DNA of 64,000 bases from Owenia fusiformis (taxonomy: Eukaryota > Annelida > Polychaeta > Sabellida > Oweniidae), in contig CAIIXF020000003.1 of assembly GCA_903813345.2 (NCBI GenBank), positions 32,239,151 to 32,303,150 of the forward strand. The letters are read 5' to 3'. This document shows positions 5,905 to 58,820 of the stretch, in pieces. Both the position numbers and the translations under genes were made by a program. Numbering within the stretch: the first letter of the stretch is position 1; each line of letters opens with the position of its first letter. The notes beneath the pieces were generated by a model. It was not told the DNA's origin, did no database searches, and worked only from the letters and a program-made list of their open reading frames with translations.

Positions 5905-6400
5905 AGATGCACACATTTTACTGTACATGAAGTGTGTTGTGAAATAGAGGTGTTATGTCATGCTGTTCAAATACACATGCTTTACTATTCATTTACATTA
6001 GGCATGTTTGTTATAGATGTGATGTTTGTTAGAGATGTGATATATCATGCTATTAAAATACATATAATTTACTACATGTTTGTTTTGTTATAGAGGTGTT
6101 ATGTCATGCTGTTCAAATAACATGTTTTACTGTATATTTTGGAATGTGTGCTTTGTTATAGAGGTGTTATGTCATGCTGTTAAAATAACATGTTTTACTG
6201 TACATGAAGGCATGTTTGTTTTGTCATAGATGTGTTATGTCATGCTATTCAAATAACATGTTTTACTATATATTTAGGCATGTACTGTACATGAAGGCAT
6301 GTTTGTTTTGTTTTAAGAGGTGTTATGTCATGCTGTTCAAATAACATGTTTTACTGTACATGAAGGCATGTTTGTTATGTCATGCTGTTCATAATATCTC
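5905..6400. repeat. Tandem repeat, period about 68 bp
   Basis: Repeated blocks of GTTATGTCATGCTGTT followed by AAATAACATGTTTTACTGTA and a GGCATGTTTGTTTTGT segment. Spacing is about 68 bp between copies near 6098, 6166 and 6234. The edges are degenerate. Confidence 0.85.
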
Positions 6401-7494
6401 AGAGGTTATCTGTAAATGGTTCAACTTAATTAATTAAAGAAACAAGTATGTTCAGTTTCAAGTTTTTCTTTGATAAAACAAAATTGGTATCTTCCAATCA
6501 TCGGCTTCACTTCCTTATTTACTTAACTATAAAACTGAACTTTAGAGTGTAAGATCAACCAATGAGAGAAAATGTGAGGGGTCATCTCAAATGTAAACTA
6601 ATTCTGTCTACATACCATATATTCATTCCATTTGGAGTGAACACCCACCTACCCTTGTCAACAAAACTTTATAGCATTGGCAATGTTTTAGTTTCAAAAA
6701 GTATGCTACTCGAAAAATGATATTCATTATTATTATTCAATAAAACAGTTGCTTTGACCTATTTATCCCGGGATTATTAATTTCCAGTGATATTTCTGAC
6801 GTTAAAGAGACCTGTATGGTATTTCTCGTTTTATCAGTCCCATATGCCGCATAATCACTGCCTGTATGATAAAGGAATCTGAATTTTTTGAATTTCCGAT
6901 TGTAATCATGGGATAAACCCAATATAAGATCATTTGATCACCTCATAGGTTTCAAATATTTTAATACTTATTCGCTTCCGTTACTCATGTTGATTTCGTA
7001 TCAACTTGTTGATAAAAAAAATGATGTCACGCAAAATGATCTAATATTCTGCATATATTATACTATATACCAGTTAGTGCAAAACAACCTACATATCAAA
7101 TTAATTTTGTGCAAAAAATAAGAGCTGGCACCTAAATATAGTAAAAGTCAAAACAATCTCTTACATTCCTGGAACTGTGAACTACTTCAATTTGCTTCTA
7201 AATATATGAATTAAAGTACAATGCCCGCAAGCAAATTGTTTATATTTAGAATTTGATGTAATTTTAGTAGCACTCATTTAGAAAAACATTTATGACAAAA
7301 TGTTTTTACTATGTTAATATAACATTGTTTCATCACTATGAATAGCTTTCAGTAATGGCTGCTACTGTAAACAACTTATATAGGACTCTAGTCCACAACA
7401 GTTCTATACTTTACACTCCTATACTTCACAGTCCCATACTTTACAGTACTTAGCGCTACAATGATGAACGATACAGTCCTGTACAATCTTTATT
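6401..7494. other. No gene seen
   Basis: AT-rich sequence without a supported coding region, RNA gene or clear repeat. Confidence 0.5.
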
Positions 7495-7785
7495 TTGAAT
7501 ATGACAGTATATTTTGAATATGACAGGTAGATTTTGAATATGACCATTAGATTTTGAATATGACCATTAGATTTTGAATATGACAGGTAGAATTTGAATA
7601 TGACCATGAGATTTTGAAGATGAACAGTAGATTTTATATATGACCAGTATATTTTGAACGACTGGTAGATTTTGAATATAAACAGTATATTTTAAATGAC
7701 TGGTAGATTTTGAATATGATAGGTAGATTCTAAATATTGCCAGTATATTTTGAATACAACCAATAGATTTTGAATATCACTTCAA
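7495..7785. repeat. 20-bp minisatellite
   Basis: About a dozen imperfect copies of AGATTTTGAATATGACCATT and variants. Isolated copies continue near 8040. It is not coding. Confidence 0.85.
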
Positions 7786-14107: not shown

Positions 14108-14393
14108 CAGTAAAACATGTCATTGTAAAAGTGGAACACATAGCAAGAAAAACACCTCACAAGTCAGGGTTTCACTAGACTTTCTCACAACAGGCTAAAT
14201 AAATGAAACAACACCAAAATTAATGGAAATCCTAAATTTAACATGGAAAAGTTAATAAGTCCCTAAAAACAACAGGCGATTTTGTGCAAACAACTGGAGA
14301 AAATCGCCTGTTGCCTGCTGCTAATGAAACACCTCACAAGTAGAACACCTCCCAAGTCTTTCCCAAGGGTGTTCCACCATACAGGCTTTACTG
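14108..14393. mobile_element. CAGTAAAACC MITE carrying a nested hAT MITE
   Basis: Ends CAGTAAAAC and GCTTTACTG are inverted repeats flanked by TA. The interior has AAGTGGAACAC and GTGTTCCACC in inverted orientation. A 168-bp hAT-like element sits inside at 14165-14332, so the host MITE itself is only about 110 bp. TA duplication and the end sequence suggest the pogo/Tc1-mariner group. Confidence 0.65.
14165..14332. mobile_element. hAT-like MITE with 9-bp duplication
   Basis: A 168-bp element beginning CAGGGTTTCACTAG and ending CTAATGAAACAC. It is flanked on both sides by CTCACAAGT (14156-14164 and 14333-14341), an intact target duplication of the size expected for hAT (8 bp, with one ambiguous base). 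A homologous copy is at 648-818. It is inserted inside another MITE, so it is the younger of the two. Confidence 0.8.
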
Positions 14394-14395
14394 TA

Positions 14396-14606
14396 TCAAA
14401 ATGATATACATTGCTTTACTGTATCAGTATTGATATACATTGTTTTACTGTATGTACACGATATGCATTGCTTTACTGTATCTACATGATATACATTGCT
14501 TTACTGTATCAGTTTTGATATGCATTGTTTTACTGTATCTACATGATATGCATTGCTTACTGTATCAGCATCGATATGCATTGTTTTACTGTATTTACAT
14601 GATAGG
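14396..14606. repeat. 28-30 bp minisatellite derived from the MITE end
   Basis: About seven copies of GATATGCATTGTTTTACTGTA plus TCTACAT or TCAGTAT. The TTTACTGTATC part is identical to the right end of the adjacent MITE, so the array probably grew from that end. Frames through it are open but repetitive. Confidence 0.8.
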
Positions 14607-27448: not shown

Positions 27449-32268
<4,820 letters not shown>

Positions 32269-32555: not shown

Positions 32556-35500
32556 ATGGATGGGCTTATGTTTAATATAGATGCTGGGTATCTAGAAGGA
32601 CTTGTCAGAGGATTCAAAGGAGGCATTTTGAAGCAAGCAGACTACCTGAACTTAGTACAATGTGAAACTTTAGATGGCAAGTTTTTTCATTTTTTTAATT
32701 TTTTTTCAATTCAATTGATTCAGAATCAGGAGATACCATTAGGCCATCACTTCGATTCAAGAATATCAGATCAAAATTCTCCGGAAATTACAGAAGGTTA
32801 TGTTTGCTGATTTAGAATATCTGACAATTTTTTATTCTAGTTGCGTATGAATGTCAGAGATGATTGTTGTTGTTGTCGTTGTTGTTGATTGACAATTACC
32901 CAAATGCGAGTAGGTAGTTACCAGTTTCACCACCAGGTGGCTGATTCGGGTCAATTAACATGGCAGGTATATAAGAAAGTTCCCTTAAACTTGAATATTA
33001 TCAATTTAGAGTCCATTTCACTGCTTCAGTTCGTCAGTAGAACGGCAAAAATAAGAAATTGGGAGACTATTGTGCAATAATATATGGAAAAGTATATTCA
33101 TAATGTACATGAATGACATTTGTATATTTCAGATTTTTTAGTTTTTTGTGCAATAAGCCTGTGCCGTCTTGTAATTTGAAGAATTTCAGCCATGTTAATC
33201 TTATTGGAAATAACATGGCAGAGAAACATCCAAATATAAGAGGCCACACACTTTATAAGCCAAACTAGGAGCAATCCAAGATATACAAATGTCATTCATG
33301 TACATTATGAATATACTTTTCCATATATTATTGCACAATGGTCTCCCAATTTCTTATTTTTGCCGTTCTACTGACGAACTGAAGCAGTGAAATGGACTCT
33401 AAGTGGCTCAATTTTCATACAACCCTTATGTGTCTGATACTTATACTTTACTTCGGTCCAAAGCCTTCTCTATATTCCGGCTTTGAGGAGGAAGATTGAG
33501 CTGCCTTAGTATTATAAATATTGTGAATCATTGTGTCACACGCACAGTAAATATGGCATAATAATATGAAATATACCTTTATGTATAGATTTGAAGAACA
33601 CCAGCTCACATCCCCGTCTGAATCTATTGTTATATTTGATTTCTTTAAGCGAGAATAATTTCAAATGTTATTCACGTCCAGAACCGGAAGCCATTTTTAG
33701 CTACAGCGAGAAAATTTCACCATGTGTTGAAACTCCGAAATGAAATTTTGAAATATCTAAATCCAGACAAGCAACGCTTCATCCTAAATATGATTAATAT
33801 TCTTAAAAATATTTATAAAATTGATTAAAAATGAGTTCTAGGTGCGTGTAGCACAGTACATACGAAATCAATGAAGTTTCGTCTAGCTGTAAGCTAGAGA
33901 CTCGAGTAACTTATACTCATGAAAATATGTCCAAGAAAGCAAAATATTATCTGTCCACTAAAAGAAAATATATTTAATTTTTTGTGATTTTATAGCATGG
34001 GGTCTATGGGGAATCTCCCCGAGCTAGAAGTCACATTTTCAAAGAAAATTATTTTTTCAAAGTTGATAAACAATTTTTAAAACCACATCTCTAGATGTAA
34101 TTTTACATGTAGATTTCAAATATGATATTACTTTGACTGAATTTTGAATTTTTAATGACATAAATCAAGATTATTTCTACTCGCATCTGGGTTATTAGGC
34201 CTACCCTTACTTCCTGCGAAAGCTATGTGGATTTTGATATAATAGCTTTCCCACGGCACACTTGGACAGCTGAATAATAGTGACCTTTAAAACTTGAATA
34301 ATGAGATCCTTGGCTTACTTTTGGTCTCTAACTGTGTTTTACATCAGTATCATCAAGCCGTGCAAGTATTGGAGCGCTGAAATACTTCTTTTTAGATCAA
34401 GACTTGTAAATTGTTCATCGAGTGAATGTTTTTTCGACCCATTTCCAATATGGAGGTTTGCTAGGAGCGAGATACGCATCAAACGAAATGAATTTTGAGA
34501 ATGAGTTAGGTTCGGACAACCTATGGAGTATAGCCTTTCCCAATGGCCATGATGATATCATGGCCATTACGCATACCTATATTTATAATGACGCAGCAGC
34601 AAAATGCAATAAACTATGCACCTACCCTATCTTTGAATGCTCCGAAATCACTCTGCTACGTTTTTAGTGAAGTAATTTGGTATTTCATGAGTAATTTGGA
34701 GATTTTTGTCAAAAATTTGGAACTAATTTTGAAAATTAAAATCCTCTTTATGCGCATGCGCTGGGTGCGCGTGTCAAACTAATCGCGTGTTTAACTAATC
34801 AAAATCATTATTTCAATACTAGTTTAATAACATAAACAGACAATTATATGAATATATATAAATTATATGAATATATATGAATATTTGAAAAGAATATGAT
34901 ATCTCGCTACACGTTTAGTAGCGTTAGAGAAATCTTATTATAATAATTTCGTTTCTTGGTGTTAATATAGATTTGCATAACGACCAGAGGAGCCAGAATT
35001 TCTAAGTCGAAATTGCTTCGACATTATACTTATAGAACGAAGGATTTACGATAATTAAGAACTCAAGAATTACAATTTCAACTGTACAAATGAGACAGGA
35101 AAGAAGTGGGCTGGTCAAATAAAGGGTAGGTCTCCAACTAACATCATAATTTTAACATTCATGAGTACAGAATTCCGCGACAATCTATTCAATGGTATGC
35201 GAGATGTCCCTAGTAGGACTAGGGACATCTTGAAGTCTAATGGAGTAGAGCTCGAAAGAATTGTCCGTAATGCCGCAAAGGTAAGGTTATTGGTGAATGC
35301 CGGTATTGAAATTTATTACCGACATCGAACGGTAAATCCCCGGGGAAATTGCGATTCATACTTCATCAATCGGTACCACAAATAACGTCTAAAAGTCGCA
35401 TTTATTTTAGTATATGTCTTTTCAGTGTATTCATTCTTTAATTGTGTGTGTTTATACGGTATGATATTTAATTATTTACATGTAATTTTAGTGTAAGAGT

Positions 35501-38500
35501 CCTAAAAGTTGGAAAAACACTTACCTGAACTTGTTATTTTGCCGCCACTCAAAACGAGGCCAAAAGTATAAGCGCGCCATCTATTGTGAATGTGAACGTA
35601 AAAATAAACTTTGACATTTATGTTGTTTATTGATTGTACAGGGCGTCAAATAAGTCTGTTCTCCCCCCTTAACTTTTTTAATTCAGAGATAACATAGGAT
35701 TGGTATATATCATCTTTAAGGGAATTTAATTTGCTGATCACAAACCAAATCTCAGAGTGATTGGTTAAATTCCAAATTTTTTAGAGTATTTTTCGTGATG
35801 TCCATATTTCACTTTTTATAGTCTGTATGTCTCCCCCAGCAGCCCGGATGGCCTCAATTCTACGAGGATATGATCCTGTATAAATCATTCAGAACGATTA
35901 ATTTTAGGTGTTATCAACTATTTTGTGATGAAAGATACCCCTGCTTCAAAGGCTCCCCTGAATGTAACACATTTTACTCTGTAACGATATTGAGAAACAT
36001 CGAAATCACCCAATGTTGGCATTGTCACAGCAGTATCAACTTTTCACTTTTCATTCACTATACCTGGTAATTTTACTTGTTTTGACGTAATCAAAGGTCA
36101 ACGACAACCTTACAAGAAACAGTGTAGCAATATTATTAGGAGGAGTTTATGATTGATTTTTTGAGGGTGATCAGCATTTTCCATGAGCTTCAAAATGATA
36201 TATGGGAAAGTATGATAAATTTAAAGATTAAAAAGTCAAGGGGGGAGAACAGACTTATTTGACACCCTGTAATCAGCATGAATACGATTTATATATACAC
36301 AAGAAAACACTTTTGAAGCTGTTATATAACACTCAGTTCCCCAAACATGATGGATGTAAGAGGTAAATAGCAAAATGTTTGTAAGAATTAAAAAGTTCAA
36401 TTTTTTCAGAATTTTTTGATTATTTTTCTACGTCAGCGATTAATCGGTGATGGTTCGGTTTCAAGATGCGGTAATACCGGCACCATTTTCCAATGCCGTT
36501 CCGAGCTCTACTCCGGAGATTTATGAAAATGTCCGAGCAGAAAACGCCATATTGGAATTTGGCAGAAAAAACATTCACTCGACTAACAATAACAAGTCTT
36601 GATGGAAAATGAAGTACTTCCGCGCTCCAATACTTGCACGGAAGGATGATAATGATGTATGACATAGTTAGAGAACAAAAGTAAGCCGTGGATCAACTTA
36701 ATTCGTGTTTCAAAGGTCACTATTGTTCAGCTGTCCATTTCTCCATTGGAGAGCCTTAAGTTTCAAAATTTAACATGGCTCTCCAAGTGAGTAAGTCTAC
36801 CCCCATTAATCAAATGTGATTGATTGACGTTTTTTTCACCATTAAAAGAAGCGATCACGATTTTAGGAGATCTGCATTTTTAAACACTAAAGACTAACAT
36901 TTTCTTCTATTTGATGGCATATTTGAATTCTGTGTGTTATTTTCTATCAAAGCAACTTTGATTCGCACCGTTATTTATCTTTATTCAAATTCTAATGATT
37001 TTCTAGTTTTCCATTGACACAATGCTGAAAAACCTTTAAAAGTTCATTTACTCTTATAAGGATCACAACTTTAATGTGAAATCACAATCCACATTTAATT
37101 AAGATCATATAGTTATATTCCAATAATTTTTTAAGTTGATCCAAATAGAATTACTTCTTAAATCGAGAAATTAAGTGTGTATTCTAGCCCTACCCCAGCC
37201 TTACCAATACCCATGATGCTGTCTATTTTCCATTTATTAGAAAAAGATCAATTGAAGATGAAAATCAGGACTATCTATGTCGGCAGTTTCCTTTCCTATT
37301 CTCTTCTTTTCTTTGACAAAACACTTTTACCAATGTAATAAGAGATTACTGGAAACAATGCTTCATATCTGCAATTATTCAGCATTTATATCTAGGTCTT
37401 AAAATTGTCAACCATTTGTCGAACTTCAAGAAATTGAATGGCTAACATTTGTTTGGGAGTTTTGCTCAAGGTCAAAACATGTATTATAAAAATCGTAGTA
37501 TCATATGAAAAATTTTATCCAACAAAAAATACATGTGTTATAAATTTGCCCGATATTTTGTTAAATATGTTACATATATTTGTGTTGATTGTTAAACTAC
37601 AAAATAGCTAAGGGTGAAGAATATGTCAATCACATAAGCAAATCTCCATTTTTTCCTCTTGTATGTCATTGTAAATAGCCTCTTTTCATCATTACACCCA
37701 TTTTAATTTATGTTTTCACAAACATTTGCATGTTATATCCATGATGTTCAACAACTTTTTCCCATGTAAAATATCAGTGAAAGGGTTCCAGCTGACCTAA
37801 CATTCCCGATGTTTTTCTTTCTAGACTTAAAGCTTCACCTACAGAGCACAGACTATGGCAACTTCCTCGCAAATGAACCAAGCCCCCTGACTGTCTCTAC
37901 CATAGATGATAATTTAAAAGAGAAAATGGTAGTAGAGTTCCAGCATATTAGAAACCAGGCCCTTGAGCCACTGTCAACATTCCTTGATTATGTCACGTAA
38001 GTAGTGAATACAAGATTCAACAGGATATTATGAAAGCACCTATGTCACTGTAAAGAGTAGTTGTAAGAAATAATTTTGTTACAAATAATTGGCAAAATAT
38101 TATATCTGTTTTTTATTTTCAGCCATTTTACTTATAACATTGATTTGTCCATCTCTCTCTCAGTCAGTCCAAAATAGTGGCAAGTGGCTTGAGCCCAGTG
38201 CCCACGGTAATTTTCATTTAAAATCCTAAGTTACCTATTCTTAAGTTTCCGCCTCTCTTTCCAGGTACAGCTACATGATAGACAACATCATTTTACTAAT
38301 CACAGGGACTCTTCACCAACGTTCCATCTCAGAGCTGATCCCCAAGTGCCACCCTCTTGGCAGCTTTGAACAAATGGAGGCCATCCACATTGCATCCACC
38401 CCAGCTGAACTCTACAATGCAGTGTTAGTGGACACACCATTAGGTAAGCGCTCATTAATGTGTCCAAGCCCTCTTCACTTCTGTTATATTCTCATACTTC

Positions 38501-41500
38501 ATAGACTGTATGTTTTCCAGCTCCATACTTCTGTTTTCCAGCCCCATACTTCATAGATTGTATGTTTTCCAGCCCCACACTTCATAGATTGTATGTTTTC
38601 CAGCTCCATACTTCTGTTTTCCAGCTCCATACTTCTGTTTTCCAGCCCCATACTTCATAGATTGTATGTTTTCCAGCCCCACACTTCATAGATTGTATGT
38701 TTTCCAGCTCCATACTTCTGTTTTCCAGCCCCATACTTCATAGATTGTATGTTTTCCAGCCCCACACTTCATAGATTGTATGTTTTCCAGCTCCATACTT
38801 CTGTTTTCCAACCCCATACTTCATAGATTGTATGTTTTCTAGCCCCACACTTCATAGATTGTATGTTTTCCAGCCCCACACTTCATAGATTGTATGTTTT
38901 CCAGCCCCATACTTCATAGATTGTATGTTGTCCAGCCCCATACTTCATAGATTGTATGTTTTCCAGCCCCATACTTCATAGATTGTATGTTTTCCAGCCC
39001 CATACTTCATAGATTGTATGTTTTCCAGCCCCATACTTCATAGACTGTATGTTTTCCAGCTCCATACTTCATAGACTGTATGTTTTCAAGCCCCATACTT
39101 CATAGACTGTATGTTTTCAAGCCCCATACTTCATAGACTGTATGTTTTCAAGCCCCATACTTCATAGACTGTATGTTTTCCAGCTCCATACTTCATAGAC
39201 TGTATGTTTTCCAGCTCCATACTTCATAGACTGTATGTTTTCAAGCCCCATACTTCATAGACTGTATGTTTTCAAGCCCCATACTTCATAGATTGTATGT
39301 TTTCCAGCCCCATACTTCATAGATTGTATGTTTTCCAGCTCCATACTTCATAGACTGTATGTTTTCAAGCCCCATACTTCATAGACTGTATGTTTTCAAG
39401 CCCCATACTTCATAGACTGTATGTTTTCAAGCCCCATACTTCATAGATTGTATGTTTTCCAGCCCCAGACTTCATAGATTGTATGTTGTCCAGCCCCATA
39501 CTTCATAGATTGTATGTTGTCCAGCCCCATACTTCATAGATTGTATGTTTTCCAGCCCCATACTTCATAGATTGTATGTTGTCCAGCCCCATACTTCATA
39601 GATTGTATGTTGTCCAGCCCCATACTTCATAGATTGTATGTTTTCCAGCCCCATACTTCATAGATTGTATGTTTTCCAGCCCCATACTTCATAGATTGTA
39701 TGTTGTCCAGCCCCATACTTCATAGATTGTATGTTGTCCAACCCCATACTTCATAGATTGTATGTTTTCCAGCCCCATACTTCATCGATTGTATGTTTTC
39801 CAGCCCCATACTTCATAGATTGTATGTTGTCCAGCCCCATACTTCATAGATTGTATGTTGTCCAGCCCCATACTTCATAGATTGTATGTTTTCCAGCCTC
39901 ATACTTCATAGATTGTATGTTTTCCAGCCCCATACTTCATAGATTGTATGTTGTCCAGCCCCATACTTCATAGATTGTATGTTGTCCAGCCCCATACTTC
40001 ATAGATTGTATGTTTTCCAGCCCCATACTTCATCGATTGTATGTTTTCCAGCCCCATACTTCATAGATTGTATGTTGTCCAGCCCCATACTTCATAGATT
40101 GTATGTTTTCCAGCCCCATACTTCATCGATTGTATTTCTGAGCAGGACTTGGATGAGATGAACATTGAAATCATCAGGAACACATTGTACAAGGCTTACC
40201 TTGAAGACTTCTATAAGTTCTGCAAGGAGCTGGGTGGAGCTACAGCTGAGGTGATGTGTGAGGCACTCGCTGTAAGTTGGATTAGTGATGGGGATGGTCT
40301 CCAAATGTTGACAGTTATGGAAAAATGAAATCAATGTCATTATTGTTTGTATTCCCATTCTTTCCCCAAGTAACGAAATTGATATTTGAAACAAATCAAC
40401 ATTTGTCAATAATAAATTTGTGTTTTGCCTTTCACTCTGAACAAAGTAACCTTATTTTGCCACAACTGTTGAGTTTTGGACCCCATTACTTGATATAACC
40501 GTTGCACAAGAATTCTTGCGACTTGCTCTTTTGACCAAATATTAGGCTTTTGTGAGTAATAATCCTGTCAGAATAGCATTATGGCATACAGGACAAGAAT
40601 CTAACGGCTTATAATCGCTGTCGTAAATATTGATCTCATTCCTTACATTTTGAGATCATACATGTATAATCAGATACACTTCTTGCGTTGTTACTGTAGT
40701 AGGAAATCATTATGTTTGTGTTTATCTTGAACAGCCCTTCTTGATTTGGTTTCATGATATTTTCATTAGCTTGGAAGGTGGCATTTCTTGTGTTAGCATT
40801 TCCAGATAAACTGCTTGGCGAAATTAATTTGGAATTTCTGAGGATGTTTCTGACCATGAAAATATAAAACTGTTTTTTGGCGTGTTGCATAAATTTAAAA
40901 GCAGATATTTTTAGTGTTGATGACATTATTCATCATCATGTATCTAGCTATAATGTTAATTGTTCAAGTAGTAAAAAGTTATATTTCTTATGAATGTCTA
41001 AATATGTTCCAGTTTGAAGCAGACAGGAGGGCATTCATCATAACTATTAACTCATTTGGCACAGAGCTGACCAAAGATGATCGTGCAAAGTTATATCCCC
41101 GATGTGGCCAACTCTACCCTGATGGTCTTGCTGTACTTGCCAGGGCAGATGACCAGGATCAGGTTCGCAGTGTAGCAGACTACTATGTAAGTGGGGTTCA
41201 CATTTTCTAAATCAAGGGTTATGTGGGGTTAGGTTTGTAAATCATTGACAGATGACCAAAATCAGGTTTACAGTGTAGCAGACTACTCTGTAGGTAGGGT
41301 TTTTGTTTTCTAAAGCAAGTGTAATGTGGGGTCAGTACCGGGGGTGATCAATAAGTAATGGACGCTTTTTTACACAGATGCTTTTTAGAGACCAATCCCT
41401 TTGATTTTCCTACCAGGGATACCAGACAAAATATATAAGACATGTTGATATATCCTTATTTCCGTGAAGGAGGTACAACTACCCTGGGACCGACATTTAC

Positions 41501-44500
41501 GTTACATTCAGTTTTTAGCCAGTTTGGCAAATTTCAGTTAGATTTGAACTTTTTTATATGCAACAAGTGTTGTGTTGTCTGAAATATTTTGCTGACTGGT
41601 AACACATAAACAGTAAGTATTGTGATGTCAGAGTGTTGTATGGTCAGGGTTTGCAGGTCAATTTGAGAAAGCATGGTGGAAGAAGGGGTTTTTGAGAGAA
41701 GGAAACACCCTACTCCATATGGACAATGCACCTGCCCACAGATCTCAAAATGTTCAGAAAACAATATCCCTTGACCTCAAAATTGAGCCCTTGACCAATG
41801 CACCATATTGTCCAGATCTGCCCACATTTGACTTATTTATTTCTATATTACTTATTTCTATAGAGAAAGGACGCATGTTTATTGACATTGATGGAATAAA
41901 ACAACCCGTGCAACTGCATCTTGCTACCATGTCAGAGAATGGATTCAGCCTTGTCTCACAATCATGAGTTAAGAGGATGAGGAATTGTGTACATGTAGCA
42001 CTTGATGGAACCTATGTAGAGGGCCCTGTAGAATGAATGTGGCATGAATACCACATAGTGATGATAAAATATTCAAAATCAAATATGGCATAACAAAATG
42101 GGGTAATTCATGACCACCATCGTTTGTTTTGTTCAGCCTACATTCAACTGCGTTAAATGTTAAACAAGCTTAAATAGCTTCAGAATGTTTAACGTCATGT
42201 CGGTCCCGAGGTACCTATACCTCCTTCACGGAAATAAAGATATTTCAAAATATATTATATGTTTTGTTTTCAAATCTTCAGAGTTGATAAATAATTGAAT
42301 GATGTATCACTGGTAAGAAAATAGAAGGGATTGGTTTATAAAAAGCATCTGTGTAAAAAAGCGTCCATTACTTATTGATCACCCCTCGTATGTGTAAATC
42401 ATGGCAGCCTTAATTGTAGCTATTAAGACATCAAAATATGAACTTTACAAATCCTACCATATGGGGTGTTAGAATTAAGGAGGAATAATTAGATGCTGAT
42501 GTTCCTAGAATTGTACATTATTATTTCAGGAATACAAGTCATTGTTTGAGGGGGCTGGTACCAATCCTAGAATTGTACATTATTATTTCAGGAATACAAG
42601 TCATTGTTTGAGGGGGCTGGTACCAATCCTAGAATTGTACATTATTATTTCAGGAATACAAGTCATTGTTTGAGGAGGCTGGTACCAATCCTAGAATTGT
42701 ACATTATTATTTCAGGAATACAAGTCATTGTTTGAGGGGGCTGGTACCAATCCTAGAATTGTACATTATTATTTCAGGAATACAAGTCATTGTTTGAGGG
42801 GGCTGGTACCAATCCTAGAATTGTACATTATTATTTCAGGAATACAAGTCATTGTTTGAGGGGGCTGGTACCAATCCTAGAATTGTACATTATTATTTCA
42901 GGAATACAAGTCATTGTTTGAGGGGGCTGGTACCAATCCTAGAATTGTACATTATTATTTCAGGAATACAAGTCATTGTTTGAGGGGGCTGGTACCAATC
43001 CTAGAATTGTACATTATTATTTCAGGAATACAAGTCATTATTTGAGGGGGCTGGTACCAATCCTAGAATTGTACATTATTATTTCAGGAATACAAGTCAT
43101 TGTTTGAGGGGGCTGGTACCAATCCTAGAATTGTACATTGATATTTCAGGAATACAAGTCATTGTTTGAGGGGGCTGGTACCAATCCTAGAATTGTACAT
43201 TATTATTTCAGGAATACAAGTCATTGTTTGAGGGGGCTGGTACCAATCCTAGAATTGTACATTATTATTTCAGGAATACAAGTCATTGTTTGAGGGGGCT
43301 GGTACCAATCCTGGAGAGAAAACTTTGGAAGACAAATTCTTTGAACATGAGGTAAGATTAAAGTCATTTAAAGATGGCGACTAGACCAAAACTCTATTAA
43401 CCCTTTCGTGACGTCAAAATTACAGAATTGCTGTCCCCACATGACGTCAAAAGATGGCGGCTTTTTAACAAAAAGTGTTATCTTCCTTTAAAATGTAATA
43501 TCTCAAAAAGAATTTCAACTTTTATTATGACACTTTGACATACTGTTCAAAATTAAATTCCTTCCTAACAAAAAAGTTTTCACATCAAAAGCATAAATGG
43601 ATCTGTAGAATCTGATCATTTGCAAATACCATTCCTAATAGCAGCCTATGCCCCCACCTCCTTTATTATCCCATCGAACGAAGTTCGGAGGGATATAGGG
43701 AACGCCTCCGTCCGTCCGTACGTACGTCCGTCCGTACGTCCGTCCGTCCGTCCGTCCGGGCAATAACTCAAATACCGTTGGCCCGATTTTGTTCATATTT
43801 TGTACACATATACCCTATGGGGGTAGAAGTTCTGCTCGAAAGCCGATTTTCAAAATGGCCGCTCATTTCAAAATTGCGGCCATTTTAGTGCCGATTTTAC
43901 AGTTATTTAGGTGCAATATGTAAAACTGTAATAGCAATATGTTTTAAATGTAAAAAAATTATAAAGGACTTTAATAATGCTACAAATGTAGATATTAAAG
44001 AAGCGCATGGCAGCCATCTTGAAAAATGGCGGCCTTTACTCGTCATTTTACGATTTTTGCTGTAACTCAAAAAATAGTGGAGTGATTTTGTTCATATTTG
44101 GTATGTGAATACTATAAGCATTGCACACTGTCTAAAGACACTTTTGATAGAAGGTGGCCATTTTGAAAAATGGCCGCCATTTTAACGTATTTTACTATTA
44201 CTTGAAAAGTAGTGGAGCGATTTTGTTCATATTTGGTATGTGAATACTATAAGCATGGCACTGTCCTATGACATTTTTGTGAGAAGTTGGCCATATTGAA
44301 AAAAATTTTGAAAAATGGCCCCCATTTTAACGTATTTTACTATAACTCGAAAAGTAGTGGAGCGATTTTGTTCATATTTGGTATGTGAATACTATAAGCA
44401 TGGCACACTGTCCTATGACACTTTTGGTAGAAGGTGGCCATTTTGAAAAAAAATTTGAAAAATGGCCACCATTTTAAAGTATTTTACTAGAACTCGAAAA

Positions 44501-50500: not shown

Positions 50501-50886
50501 CAATTTCTCGGTTATTACTTTAACTGAATGAGAGTCCATGGAGTGCCTTATTAGAAGTGTTTAAACTCACTTAAATGAAAACATGTTATGATAGAACTTG
50601 AATAACAAATGTATTGTATCAGAATGAGAAAATGGAAAAATATGTAATATATGTATTTGTATATGCCTTTATATATCAAATATATTGGATCTCAAATGTT
50701 ATTAAGAATTCAATATTTTTCCAGGTGAAGCTAATGGTAAATGCCTTCATGCAACAGTTCCATTTTGGCGTCTTCTACGCTTACGTAAAACTCAAGGAAC
50801 AAGAAAACCGCAACATCATCTGGATTGGAGAATGTGTCGCCCAACGTCACAGAGCAAAGATCGACAGTTACATCCCTATATTGTAA
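32556..50886 (+). CDS. ATP6V0D1: V-type ATPase V0 subunit d, complete seven-exon gene
   Basis: Subunit d caps the membrane ring of the V0 sector and couples it to the central stalk of the proton pump that acidifies endosomes, lysosomes and secretory vesicles. Exons: 32556-32676, 37825-37996, 38265-38443, 40114-40271, 41013-41186, 43274-43351, 50725-50886. They total 1044 nt, or 347 residues plus stop (animal norm about 350), with all junctions in frame. Recognisable blocks include [106 protein letters not shown] and [16 protein letters not shown]. No membrane segments, as expected. Intron 1 begins GC. Introns 3 and 5 end in long arrays that repeat the acceptor and first exon bases. Introns 1, 5 and 6 hold several transposons. 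The animal d1/d2 split cannot be judged, so the symbol names the family. Confidence 0.97.
32676..32678 (+). other. GC 5' splice site of V-ATPase d intron 1
   Basis: Exon 1 ends TTAGATG and the intron begins GCAAGT. Joining to ACTTAAAGC after TTTCTTTCTAG at 37824 rebuilds the conserved ETL-D-DLKLHLQ junction. There is no GT that keeps this reading. It is the second GC-AG intron in this pair of genes. Confidence 0.88.
33006..33402. mobile_element. Fold-back MITE with 125-bp arms
   Basis: Arms 33006-33130 and 33278-33402 are almost exact reverse complements (outer end TTAGAGTCCATTTCAC), separated by about 147 bp. It interrupts family B copy 3. I see no coding sequence and no unambiguous target duplication. 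Confidence 0.85.
33448..33908. mobile_element. 461-bp insertion with 9-bp duplication
   Basis: Flanked by ACTTATACT at 33439-33447 and 33909-33917, inside family B copy 3. Ends (TTACTTCGGTCC and GACTCGAGTA) are only weakly complementary. A 9-bp duplication would suit a Mutator-like element. No coding sequence is evident. Confidence 0.65.
35639..36269 (-). mobile_element. Internally deleted Tc1-like transposon
   Basis: 631 bp, flanked by TA. Ends CAGGGCGTCAAATAAGTCTG and its near complement; the complementarity continues through GTTCTCCCCCCTTAA, giving terminal repeats of roughly 40 bp. A piece of transposase remains near the left end on the minus strand. Confidence 0.88.
35781..35875 (-). 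pseudogene. C-terminal remnant of a Tc1-type transposase
   Basis: The minus strand reads [19 protein letters not shown] and ends at a TAA. This fits the C-terminal MPRRxxAVIxAxGGxT-like block of Tc1 transposases. No catalytic domain remains in the element. Confidence 0.65.
36741..37824. other. Rest of V-ATPase d intron 1
   Basis: AT-rich intron sequence with no gene or clear repeat; ends in the pyrimidine-rich TTTTTCTTTCTAG acceptor. Confidence 0.5.
38493..40133 (+). repeat. 31-bp tandem array copying the exon 4 acceptor of V-ATPase d
   Basis: Between the first AG (38520) and the real acceptor (40113) there are 53 units: 48 of 31 bp and 5 of 21 bp. The consensus is CCCCATACTTCATAGATT followed by GTATGTTTTCCAG. 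The first part copies the start of exon 4 (CCCCATACTTCATCGATT). The second gives a GTATGT donor-like and a TTTTCCAG acceptor. Variants have TTGTCCAG or TTTTCAAG. Reading through three or more units meets TCA-TAG, a stop. Copies with the authentic CATCGATT occur at 39783 and 40031, eight units apart. Confidence 0.97.
41338..42388 (+). mobile_element. Mariner-type transposon in V-ATPase d intron 5
   Basis: 1051 bp, flanked by TA. Ends match GGGGTGATCAATAAGTAATG on both sides in inverted orientation; with the subterminal parts (GAAGGAGGTA and GGGACCGACAT) the complementarity extends to about 170 bp. It contains part of a transposase on the same strand as the host gene. Confidence 0.9.
41692..41967 (+). 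pseudogene. Mariner transposase C-terminal fragment
   Basis: Residues [17 protein letters not shown] and [13 protein letters not shown] correspond to the second and third catalytic blocks of mariner transposases (HDNARPH and PYSPDLAPSDYHLF). The spacing of 35 residues between the two Asp is near the typical 34. The tail (FIDIDGIKQ) resembles the family C-terminus, but a stretch before it appears deleted and the N-terminal DNA-binding part is absent. Confidence 0.8.
42504..43313 (+). repeat. 62-bp tandem array copying the exon 6 acceptor of V-ATPase d
   Basis: Acceptor copies follow at exact 62-bp steps from 42529 to 43273, giving twelve copies before the real site. Each unit has the intron end (GTACATTATTATTTCAG) plus 39 exon bases (GAATACAAGTCATTG up to ACCAATCCT). 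The last unit runs on into the rest of the exon (GGAGAGAAAAC) and its donor. Units are nearly identical (single changes near 42674, 43038 and 43139), implying recent expansion or homogenisation. Confidence 0.97.
43401..45199. mobile_element. piggyBac-like non-autonomous element
   Basis: 1799 bp bounded by TTAA on both sides (43397-43400 and 45200-45203), with inverted ends CCCTTTCGTGAC and GTCGTGAAAGGG. TTAA duplication plus CCC ends are hallmarks of piggyBac. No transposase is visible. The interior has a CCGT/ACGT microsatellite (43706-43759) and a tandem block (next entry). Confidence 0.8.
43745..44640. repeat. Tandem repeat, period about 131-146 bp
   Basis: Copies near 44075, 44206, 44350 and 44496 share GTGGAGCGATTTTGTTCATA, GGTATGTGAATACTATAAGC and a GGCCATTTTGAAAAATGGCC palindrome. 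A more diverged copy begins near 43750. It lies inside the piggyBac-like element. Confidence 0.85.
46796..47204 (+). mobile_element. MITE family B, copy 2
   Basis: 409 bp with perfect 12-bp inverted ends AGATGCGAGTAA and TTACTCGCATCT. It is nested in the fold-back element and is the best preserved of the three copies in this window (others 10313-10903 and 32899-34191). Confidence 0.85.
47655..47900. repeat. Direct pair of 123-bp repeats
   Basis: Two nearly identical 123-bp units starting AACACAYCGTGAATCTTTTT in the centre of the fold-back element. 123 is a multiple of three, so a minus-strand open frame crosses both, but it has no other sign of coding. Confidence 0.9.
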
Positions 50887-56429: not shown

Positions 56430-58820
56430 AAACCGCGCTCTCCGGGAAATGTTCACTGGGAAGCATATAAGGATGCAAAAAGATGTTTTAGGCGGGAATT
56501 GAGAAAATGTGAGCAAAACTATGAAATCCGATGTCAGAAGGAGATTGACGAGCTAGAAGAAATATCTTTAAACCAATTCTGGCATCTGGTTAAAAAACGG
56601 AAGCCACGATCAGCTCCGAATATTGCAATCAAAACAGATGATGGAGTTATATTGACTGATGATAACGACGTCACAAATGAATGGAGATCTTATTTTATGA
56701 AATTGGTGTCTGCTCATGGAAGTGATCAAGATGACTATGATAATATGTTTTTTCAAAATGTTAATAATGATATCGCCAGAATGGAGCATGAAAGCTTTCT
56801 AAACAATGATCTAGCATTCGAACAACCTGTTTCTGTAGCAGAAATTGAAAAGGTTATTTCCAAGCTTTCAAAAAATAAAGCCCCTGGTTGGGACCAAATA
56901 TGCTCAGAACATTTAAACAAAGGAGGTACAATCGTTTTAAACGTACTTGTAGAATTATTTAATTGTATAATATCTTTGGAACATATCCCTGAGAATTTCA
57001 AATTGGGTGTCTTGATTCCGTTATTTAAAGGCGGTGTAAAAGATCCCCTAAATAAGGATCACCACAGGGGCATCACACTGATGACGTCATACATGAAAAT
57101 AATGGAACGGTTAATGATGATAAGAAGTGAACAATGCAATTGTCTTGAACCCAAGTCTGAAATGCAAGGTGTTGGTCTTCCAAAATGCTCAAGCATACAC
57201 ACGTCACTTCTAGCCAGAGAGGCTATATCCCATGGACTTGAGTTAGGCAATGACGTCATCGTGACGTCACTAGATATTAAAAAAGCCTTCGATAGTGTGT
57301 GGCACGATGGTCTATTATATAAATTATACAATCAAGGTATTAATGGCAAGTTATGGAGGTTAATCAAATTATCATATAATGGCTACAGATGTACAATTAA
57401 GGCTTCTCCAAACTGTCCCATGTCTGAACCTTTTGTTGTTGAAAAGGGGGTCCACCAGGGCGGAATTTATTCTATGGAATTGTATGCCAGATTTACAAAT
57501 GAATTACTAAATGAAATACAAAAATGTAACATTGGTAGCACTATATGTTGTATTAACTCAACAAGCCCCACATTTGCAGATGATACTGTCTTAATTGCAT
57601 ATCATGCCAAATCAATGCAGCAACTATTGGATAAGGTGTATCGATACAGTGTTAAATGGAGATTCCAATATCACCCAGACAAATGCCAAACAGTCGTTTT
57701 TAGTTATCAAAGGGATCCGCCTAAACCCCACTTACTACTCGGGGGGAAACAGTTACAGGTAGTTGATTCAATGCAGCATGTAGGATTACACCTTACACCA
57801 AAATCAGATTTAAGCTATGTAGACAATGCCGTCTCTAAAGGAAGGCGTACTATGAATGCCTATATTGGTGTGACATCAACGATCAACAACCCCACGAACC
57901 CCTTAACTGCCTCAAGATTGTACTGGTCGATATGTATGCCATCTCTAACATATGGCCTGGAATTAATTTCTGTGAACGAGCAAGCATTGAGTAAACTGGA
58001 AGGAGGGCATAGAGAAATTGCTAAAAAGATTCAAGGAATTTCAGCAAAAACTTGTAATCCCGCGTGCACAGCAACACTAGGGTGGCACTCAATATCAAGT
58101 AGAATTTTCATTAGTAAACTGATGCTACTTTGGCAGCTGTTAGCACTTCCTATCACAAATGTGTATAAGAAACTGGTCATAGTAAGATTAACTTTTGCAA
58201 CGCACTATAACCTTCATAAACTGTCCCCAATTGGAGATTGTCTTAAGATAGCTAGATCTTTTGGACTTCTGGGTGATGTATATGAAATGCTCAATGTTGG
58301 AACTATCCCAAAATTGCAATGGAAAAGACGTGTGAAAAATGTTGTGTATGAACGGGAATTAAGCAATTGGAGAGTACAGTGTATTTTGTTTGAAAAGTTG
58401 TCTTTATTCAGAATGGTTCAAAAAGAGATAAATCCCCTTGTATGGTGGACCCTAGCAAAATGTAATCCCATGCTACTTAAACCATGTAGAACCATCGTTA
58501 AATTATTAACGGGTGAAGGAAATCTAATGGTTAACTGTAAACGGTGGTCGGGTGGCAAGATAAATGATCTATGCTTGGTATGTGGCGAAGCTATTGAGAA
58601 TTTAGTTCATATGGTACTAGAATGTCCGGGGCATAAGGCAAAACGAAAGGATATTGAGAATATTCTTATTCAGATGTACCTTGATACCCCTCTCCCACCG
58701 AATGACGTGTTGTTACCGATTTTATTTGGCGAAAATAATGTACTGACAGAGGATCAATATATTAAGATAGCTCTGTCAATTTATGGAATGTATGAGGCAA
58801 GACCAAATGTAGATTTTTGA
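56430..58820 (+). CDS. Non-LTR reverse transcriptase, N-terminally truncated
   Basis: Open from the first in-frame codon after a TGA at 56427, so it lacks its own start and the upstream endonuclease domain. It begins in the linker (HWEAYKDAKRCFRREL). RT motifs follow in order: KAPGWDQICSEHL (from about 56877), the PLFKGG and DHHRGITLM block, SLDIKKAFDSVWHDGL, KGVHQGGIYSMELYA, and the catalytic FADDTVLIA (57573 onward). The C-terminus carries a CLVCGEAIENLVHMVLEC zinc knuckle (about 58572-58630), as in many LINE ORF2 proteins. About 796 codons remain without a stop or frameshift. The clade (I, CR1, Jockey or RTE) is not settled by inspection. No function for the host is expected. Confidence 0.92.
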   Translation, partial: KPRSPGNVHWEAYKDAKRCFRRELRKCEQNYEIRCQKEIDELEEISLNQFWHLVKKRKPRSAPNIAIKTDDGVILTDDNDVTNEWRSYFMKLVSAHGSDQDDYDNMFFQNVNNDIARMEHESFLNNDLAFEQPVSVAEIEKVISKLSKNKAPGWDQICSEHLNKGGTIVLNVLVELFNCIISLEHIPENFKLGVLIPLFKGGVKDPLNKDHHRGITLMTSYMKIMERLMMIRSEQCNCLEPKSEMQGVGLPKCSSIHTSLLAREAISHGLELGNDVIVTSLDIKKAFDSVWHDGLLYKLYNQGINGKLWRLIKLSYNGYRCTIKASPNCPMSEPFVVEKGVHQGGIYSMELYARFTNELLNEIQKCNIGSTICCINSTSPTFADDTVLIAYHAKSMQQLLDKVYRYSVKWRFQYHPDKCQTVVFSYQRDPPKPHLLLGGKQLQVVDSMQHVGLHLTPKSDLSYVDNAVSKGRRTMNAYIGVTSTINNPTNPLTASRLYWSICMPSLTYGLELISVNEQALSKLEGGHREIAKKIQGISAKTCNPACTATLGWHSISSRIFISKLMLLWQLLALPITNVYKKLVIVRLTFATHYNLHKLSPIGDCLKIARSFGLLGDVYEMLNVGTIPKLQWKRRVKNVVYERELSNWRVQCILFEKLSLFRMVQKEINPLVWWTLAKCNPMLLKPCRTIVKLLTGEGNLMVNCKRWSGGKINDLCLVCGEAIENLVHMVLECPGHKAKRKDIENILIQMYLDTPLPPNDVLLPILFGENNVLTEDQYIKIALSIYGMYEARPNVDF

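Follow-up and report, generated by a model that had tools for sequence, protein, structure and literature searches.

How is one splice acceptor chosen when dozens of near-identical copies of it lie immediately upstream? This question is raised by intron 3 of the gene for V-ATPase subunit d in the polychaete Owenia fusiformis, which is found on the + strand of a 64,000-nucleotide stretch of DNA (contig CAIIXF020000003.1 of assembly GCA_903813345.2, positions 32,239,151 to 32,303,150), referred to here as the window and numbered from its first letter. The intron (38444..40113, + strand; 1,670 bp) consists of 49 bp of unique sequence followed by a 31-bp tandem array of acceptors (38493..40135, + strand; 54.6 copies), and the authentic AG of exon 4 (40112..40113, + strand) is the end of the 54th unit. 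The array is real; probably, it is a minisatellite of the type known in amphioxus as a 'mirage', the copies of which are ignored through exon definition while the exon-proximal site wins.

Tandem Repeats Finder (TRF) reports a repeat at 38493-40135 with a period of 31, 54.6 copies and a score of 2558; intron 3 taken alone scores 2521, while 200 dinucleotide shuffles of the intron reach 83 at most and the highest score among 10 shuffles of the whole window is 60. The array (38493-40113) makes up 97% of the intron, in keeping with the initial annotation, which had described it as nearly filling these 1670 bp and had placed the exon 4 acceptor in the terminal unit of a minisatellite; splitting by pattern indeed puts the last of 54 unit ends at 40113. 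The count of 54 near-identical AG sites needs correction, however: there are 54 unit ends, 52 of which (the authentic one included) are AG and two of which (units 12 and 42) are AA, leaving 51 upstream AG copies rather than 53. Likewise, the exonic part of the unit is not about 18 bases long but 22 nt. The unit reads CCCCATACTTCATAGATTGTAT followed by gttttccag, that is, 22 nt from the start of exon 4 and then the 9 nt with which the intron ends, and most copies have ATA where exon 4 has ATC. Forty-eight units are 31 nt long, five are 21 nt, and the first is truncated to 28 nt; together with point variants, this gives 15 distinct unit sequences. It is this heterogeneity, in part, that makes an artefact of assembly extremely improbable as the source of the array. 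The locus was examined in a single assembly, which comprises 498.3 Mb in 525 contigs as against the 505.8 Mb given in the accessible part of the published genome report (PMC9977687), but the PacBio read N50 of about 26-31 kb stated there easily spans 1.6 kb, and the boundaries of other genes carry arrays with unrelated units.

Judged by its sequence, the + strand gene is that of V-ATPase subunit d. Exon assembly on this strand places exons 1 to 7 at 32556..32676, 37825..37996, 38265..38443, 40114..40271 (with its donor, gtaagt, at 40272), 41013..41186, 43274..43351 and 50725..50886, the last including the stop codon; joined, they encode a 347-aa protein that is completely identical to the deposited Owenia protein P0001, a 347-aa entry named 'unnamed protein product [Owenia fusiformis]'. 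The deposited protein matches the Pfam family vATP-synt_AC39 (2.3e-107), and the best among seven matched sequences of solved structures are V-type proton ATPase subunit d 1. Intron 1, which starts at 32677 (TTAGATG/gcaagt), is a GC-AG intron.

The deposited V-ATPase d protein exactly matches the product of the last acceptor, and last-site choice, one of the possibilities raised by the initial annotation, is thereby supported. Agreement of the same kind is found in a second gene, CCT2, the deposited protein of which (P0121) joins LACEMLK/EAEQ, DTDKIK/VFGS, KFSG/VKLGEAC and HTMGL/DMNQ, all of them exon-proximal choices. Seven arrays can be compared in this manner (three in V-ATPase d, four in CCT2), and at each of them the deposited protein corresponds to the exon-proximal choice, the last acceptor or the first donor.

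As had been remarked, the skipping of the upstream copies requires an explanation. From −20 to +3, 16 of the 53 decoys do not differ from the authentic site, and a crude matrix gives 27 of the 53 a score equal to or above that of the authentic site. One decoy, which ends at 40020 and lies 93 nt before the authentic site, shares with it 67 nt on the upstream and 22 nt on the downstream side. Local splice strength thus cannot account for the choice. The exon-derived part of the unit contains CTTCAT, which we take to be a yUnAy-like branch motif and which occurs 49 times in the array. Masking of the copies by RNA structure was considered and rejected, as folding of one 351-nt stretch (39800-40150) revealed nothing unusual (z −1.04).

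The consequences of choosing a decoy are severe. All 53 upstream unit ends of intron 3 (the two AA ends included) bring in a premature stop codon ahead of the exon 4 donor, and tolerance of mis-splicing by way of the reading frame is therefore not supported; in intron 5, which contains a second array, translation from 11 of the 12 upstream choices would stop before exon 6 is complete, and the remaining choice causes a 62-nt frame shift. The universal stops in intron 3, and the local equality of many decoys with the authentic site, would suit a scenario of noisy splicing, in which a large number of the copies serve as acceptors and the faulty products are removed by nonsense-mediated decay, with the length of the array perhaps tuning V-ATPase d output. 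We regard this scenario as unlikely, because equal use of the 52 AG sites would leave only about 1/52 of the transcripts correct, a heavy burden for a housekeeping gene that carries 12 further decoys in intron 5.

Still less probable is recursive or stepwise splicing, in which intron 3 would be removed piecewise through the copies and which the initial annotation had listed as a possible answer. The array does contain 49 donor-like GTATGT motifs, located 18 nt behind the acceptor in full units, and the 18-nt pseudo-exon delimited in this way is in frame and stop-free and would add the six residues PYFIDS. Against this stand the complete lack of AGGT ratchet points and of GTRAG in the array, a crude-matrix score for GTATGT (in the form present in 37 of the 49 copies) of only 0.8 compared with 2.3 to 6.8 for the six donors of the gene, and a deposited V-ATPase d protein without the six-residue insert. 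Tandem alternative exons were also considered and rejected: of exon 4, no more than the initial 22 nt are present in the copies, and the donor-like motif is weak.

In exon definition, exons are recognised as units, and the effect of enhancers declines with distance; in experiments with duplicated sites, the outcome has been found to be decided by exon sequence and proximity. We favour exon definition as the basis of the site choice in Owenia because it predicts the pattern of last acceptor and first donor seen in the deposited proteins. Exon 4 would be recognised as a unit, with enhancers in its unique body and the downstream donor directing the spliceosome to the closest acceptor on the upstream side; the last acceptor copy would win, and products of upstream use, with their premature stops, would be subject to nonsense-mediated decay. 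On the same principle, the first copy would be picked at donor arrays. The array itself would be nearly neutral and would persist because selection on coding and splicing acts on its last copy.

Several points weigh against this interpretation. According to the available part of the genome report, the Owenia gene models draw on ab initio prediction and protein hints as well as on RNA-seq and splice-junction evidence (PMC9977687); because of the first two of these sources, the deposited proteins are indirect proof of splicing, and the comparison with them covers two genes only, V-ATPase d and CCT2. Furthermore, the nearest decoys would lengthen the exon by a mere 31, 62 or 93 nt, extensions that exon definition alone would not obviously reject, and decoys may be used at a low level.

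The array in intron 3 has three counterparts at exon boundaries of V-ATPase d and of its neighbour in the window, AHCY, which brings the number of boundary arrays in these two genes to four. A second acceptor array is present in V-ATPase d intron 5 (42503..43312, + strand; 62 bp × 13.1), where the authentic acceptor ends at 43273. Its unit combines 27 nt of the intron end with 35 nt of the start of exon 6; the 13 acceptors are spaced at exactly 62 nt, and nine of the 12 copies that precede the terminal one match it without a difference. At the other end of the same intron, the end of exon 5 and its donor are duplicated (41146..41332, + strand; 103 bp × 1.8), the authentic donor (41187) being situated in the first copy; with 83% matches between the copies, this duplication looks older. 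In AHCY, on the - strand, TRF detected an acceptor array at exon 2 (30650..30908; first exon base 30657), the units of which are about 62 bp long and carry tttaatttcag followed, across the boundary, by CTGACATC. It should be noted as a separate observation that Owenia V-ATPase d has one residue fewer than the seven homologues compared, precisely at the exon 5/exon 6 junction (41186 / 43274), where Owenia has ADYY-EYK and the homologues have, for example, YYGEYK or YYAEYR; at this junction, donor and acceptor alike are present in more than one copy. Three further tandem arrays in the window (6075-6371, 7492-7777 and 14385-14604) are unassigned, and some of their units are acceptor-like or contain AGGT.

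Arrays of this type are also found elsewhere in the Owenia genome. In eight TCP-1/CCT family genes with more than one exon (PF00118), they straddle the edges of several exons, and CCT2 is particularly rich: it carries donor arrays at two Pfam-matched exons (28 bp × 16.6 and 53 bp × 20.2), one acceptor array (96 bp × 4.2), and a donor array of 105 bp × 49.2 at the exon ending in HTMGL. The latter (C11:128422-133615; 5.2 kb) repeats the exon end together with its GTAAGT donor, and the authentic donor lies in the first copy. Acceptor arrays are present in two of eight proteasome regions (L065 and L067) and in one of three unselected kinesin genes (L072). A further kinesin gene (L071; C2:23265900-23269900), which was picked out because the family search matched one piece of the motor domain 18 times at 159-bp spacing, has 18 acceptor copies at that spacing, each followed by 132 nt of open exon; the authentic acceptor is the last copy, and 11 of the 14 variants relative to it are synonymous. 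Judged by eye, the array units of different genes look unrelated.

The frequency of boundary arrays was estimated in 19 genes not chosen for repeats, namely eight of the TCP-1/CCT family, eight proteasome regions and three kinesin genes. An internal exon edge was counted when an array with a TRF score of at least 50 covered at least 5 nt on each side of it; the outermost edges of a gene, 5' of the first hit and 3' of the last, were excluded, and at edges without a matched junction the splice site was placed by a crude matrix. The CCT-family sample covers 49 of the 60 PF00118 matches (those on C12, C222 and C3 and at C8:24993385 and C7:13367988 were left out), the proteasome sample eight regions of about 13 matched loci, and the kinesin sample three of many loci; the proteasome and kinesin regions were chosen for compactness, which should depress the number of long arrays. 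Excluded from the count were two small repeats with fewer than 5 nt in the exon, the array of kinesin L071, the 49-copy array of CCT2, whose exon is without a Pfam hit, and two clear acceptor arrays at first hits, in the CCT-family gene g7 (83 bp × 9.1) and in L067 (94 bp × 6.1).

Under these rules, 8 of 122 internal exon edges lie inside arrays, whereas 2.09 (standard deviation 1.31) are expected under a null model in which each unit is born at random in or across introns (P 0.0003, which corresponds to about one of the 4,000 simulated runs). The edges are distributed over the CCT family (6/82), the proteasome regions (1/22) and the kinesins (1/18), and the latter two sets do not reach significance singly (P 0.31 and 0.14, respectively). 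Chance repeats derived from shuffles score as high as 60 to 83 and hence can exceed the base threshold of 50; the outcome was kept at a TRF score of 150, and the other thresholds likewise gave 8/122 versus 1.5 to 2.0 expected. When CCT2 is removed, 5 of 112 edges remain, versus 1.3 to 1.7 expected (P 0.0045 to 0.014). In the selected genes V-ATPase d and AHCY, the proportion is 4/28. In our reading, boundary arrays are thus common in Owenia and are not purged, and the initial description of the intron 3 array as very unusual does not hold: similar arrays occur in the same gene, in the next gene and in six of the 19 unselected genes, and the mirages of amphioxus had already been published. Within the limits set by a small sample, site placement that relies in part on a crude matrix, and a simple null, it is likely but not proven that boundaries are favoured over random unit birth. 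Tentatively, and with slightly less than an even chance of being right, one may extend this to the genome at large: Owenia splice junctions would then be preferred birthplaces of minisatellites, with several per cent of exon edges and thousands of loci affected, each array being re-seeded from the selected exon and the exon-proximal site always winning.

As to the origin of the arrays, tandem duplication of a short segment across the intron 3/exon 4 boundary would start the process, and slippage or unequal exchange would then add copies towards the intron. The copies must presumably accumulate on that side, because the protein would be extended or disrupted by any that stayed in the mRNA. In three of 14 arrays (the 62-bp array of V-ATPase d, L067 and the CCT-family gene g1), the length equals whole units plus only 4, 4 and 2 nt, respectively, an excess of potential significance because a short shared end sequence could seed duplication by slippage or end-joining; the remaining 11 arrays have no simple length of this form. 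Units 44 and 52 of the intron 3 array have the ATC of exon 4 beside the common ATA, which suggests that the array and the authentic copy have exchanged sequence. When the variants in the exon-derived parts of decoys are pooled over five arrays, 13 are synonymous and 11 are not, where about 22% synonymous changes would be expected (P 6e-4, a crude value that treats non-independent variants as independent and leaves transition bias out of account). This excess fits re-seeding of the arrays from a selected exon. It could also be read as a sign that the array itself has a selected function, as an enhancer, a chromatin element or an element that times splicing, a reading that we consider very unlikely. 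Transitions inflate the excess, the variants depend on one another, and copying from the selected exon accounts for it; moreover, the variant density of exon-derived (0.072 per nt) and intron-derived (0.100 per nt) parts does not differ significantly (P 0.38), and the units at different genes look unrelated by eye.

The remaining features of the window can be summarised briefly. The likely start of AHCY (32268, minus strand, MTEKVPYKV) and that of V-ATPase d (32556, plus strand) are arranged head to head about 290 bp apart, and the two genes possibly share a promoter. Intron 5 of V-ATPase d contains, at 41346-42388, an element of about 1 kb with inverted ends (recognised by eye) and a weak match to the DDE_3 transposase family (21.1 bits, under the curated cut-off), and at 56430-58817 there is an open frame of 796 aa that includes a reverse transcriptase domain. 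An Rfam scan of the window gave no match at the gathering score, and a Pfam scan for further genes in two of the six frames of the first 15 kb gave no family.

Splice-site choice is usually studied with duplicated sites that are built into reporter genes. Owenia offers a natural set of such duplications at the donor and acceptor ends of introns in housekeeping genes, where the flanks of the copies agree over tens of bases; if the genome-wide reading were true, it would provide a natural collection of splice sites that compete with dozens of exact local copies of themselves.

Several known systems invite comparison. In the openly licensed PMC literature, as far as its accessible text extends, we found no report of splice-boundary arrays in an annelid. 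Introns of earthworm metallothionein contain minisatellites, and a duplicated exon 4 is missing from the transcript, but boundary arrays are not described in the accessible part of that report (PMC12783039). Internal tandem repeats modify human duplicated genes and, as in Owenia, bear on exon-intron structure; according to the portion of the report available, they alter the structure of the gene there, whereas the deposited Owenia product is unchanged (PMC2812944). Recursive (ratchet) splicing shares with the intron 3 array the presence of many acceptors per intron, but the array is without an AG/GT ratchet site. In the available text on amphioxus, mirages are proposed to lead to intron gain via tandem duplication of AG/GT proto-splice sites (PMC3087553); this process, too, involves tandem duplication with splice signals, but the Owenia copies sit within one intron and the gene model shows no added intron.

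It is the mirages themselves that the Owenia arrays resemble most directly. In amphioxus, these boundary-spanning tandem repeats have been reported, in the portions of the publications available, for Adh3, troponin C, the globins BflGb6 and BflGb9, and PGBD5; they occur at 5' and 3' boundaries, and splicing is said to be undisturbed (PMC3087553, PMC3902484). As there, the Owenia arrays are tandem copies of intron-exon boundaries at both ends of introns, many of them with splice signals. The unit spans the authentic boundary in the 31-bp, 62-bp and AHCY arrays, the copies are arranged head to tail and adjoin that boundary, and most retain their splice signals (AG at 52 of 54 unit ends); with these three of five listed features of mirages present, we assign the Owenia case to the mirage kind. 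The other two listed features are mRNA splicing at the authentic site, with which the deposited proteins agree as indirect evidence, and instability of length between haplotypes or in somatic cells. The differences concern host and scale. Owenia is an annelid and not a chordate, its arrays reach 54 copies (97% of the intron) and 49 in CCT2 compared with the 3 and 6 given for BflGb6 in the accessible text (PMC3087553), several arrays are present in one gene, and a frequency has been estimated over unselected genes. The Owenia arrays therefore extend mirages to a distant animal lineage, at high copy number and apparently at high frequency, which suggests that the phenomenon is either common but overlooked or easily tolerated wherever minisatellites form actively.

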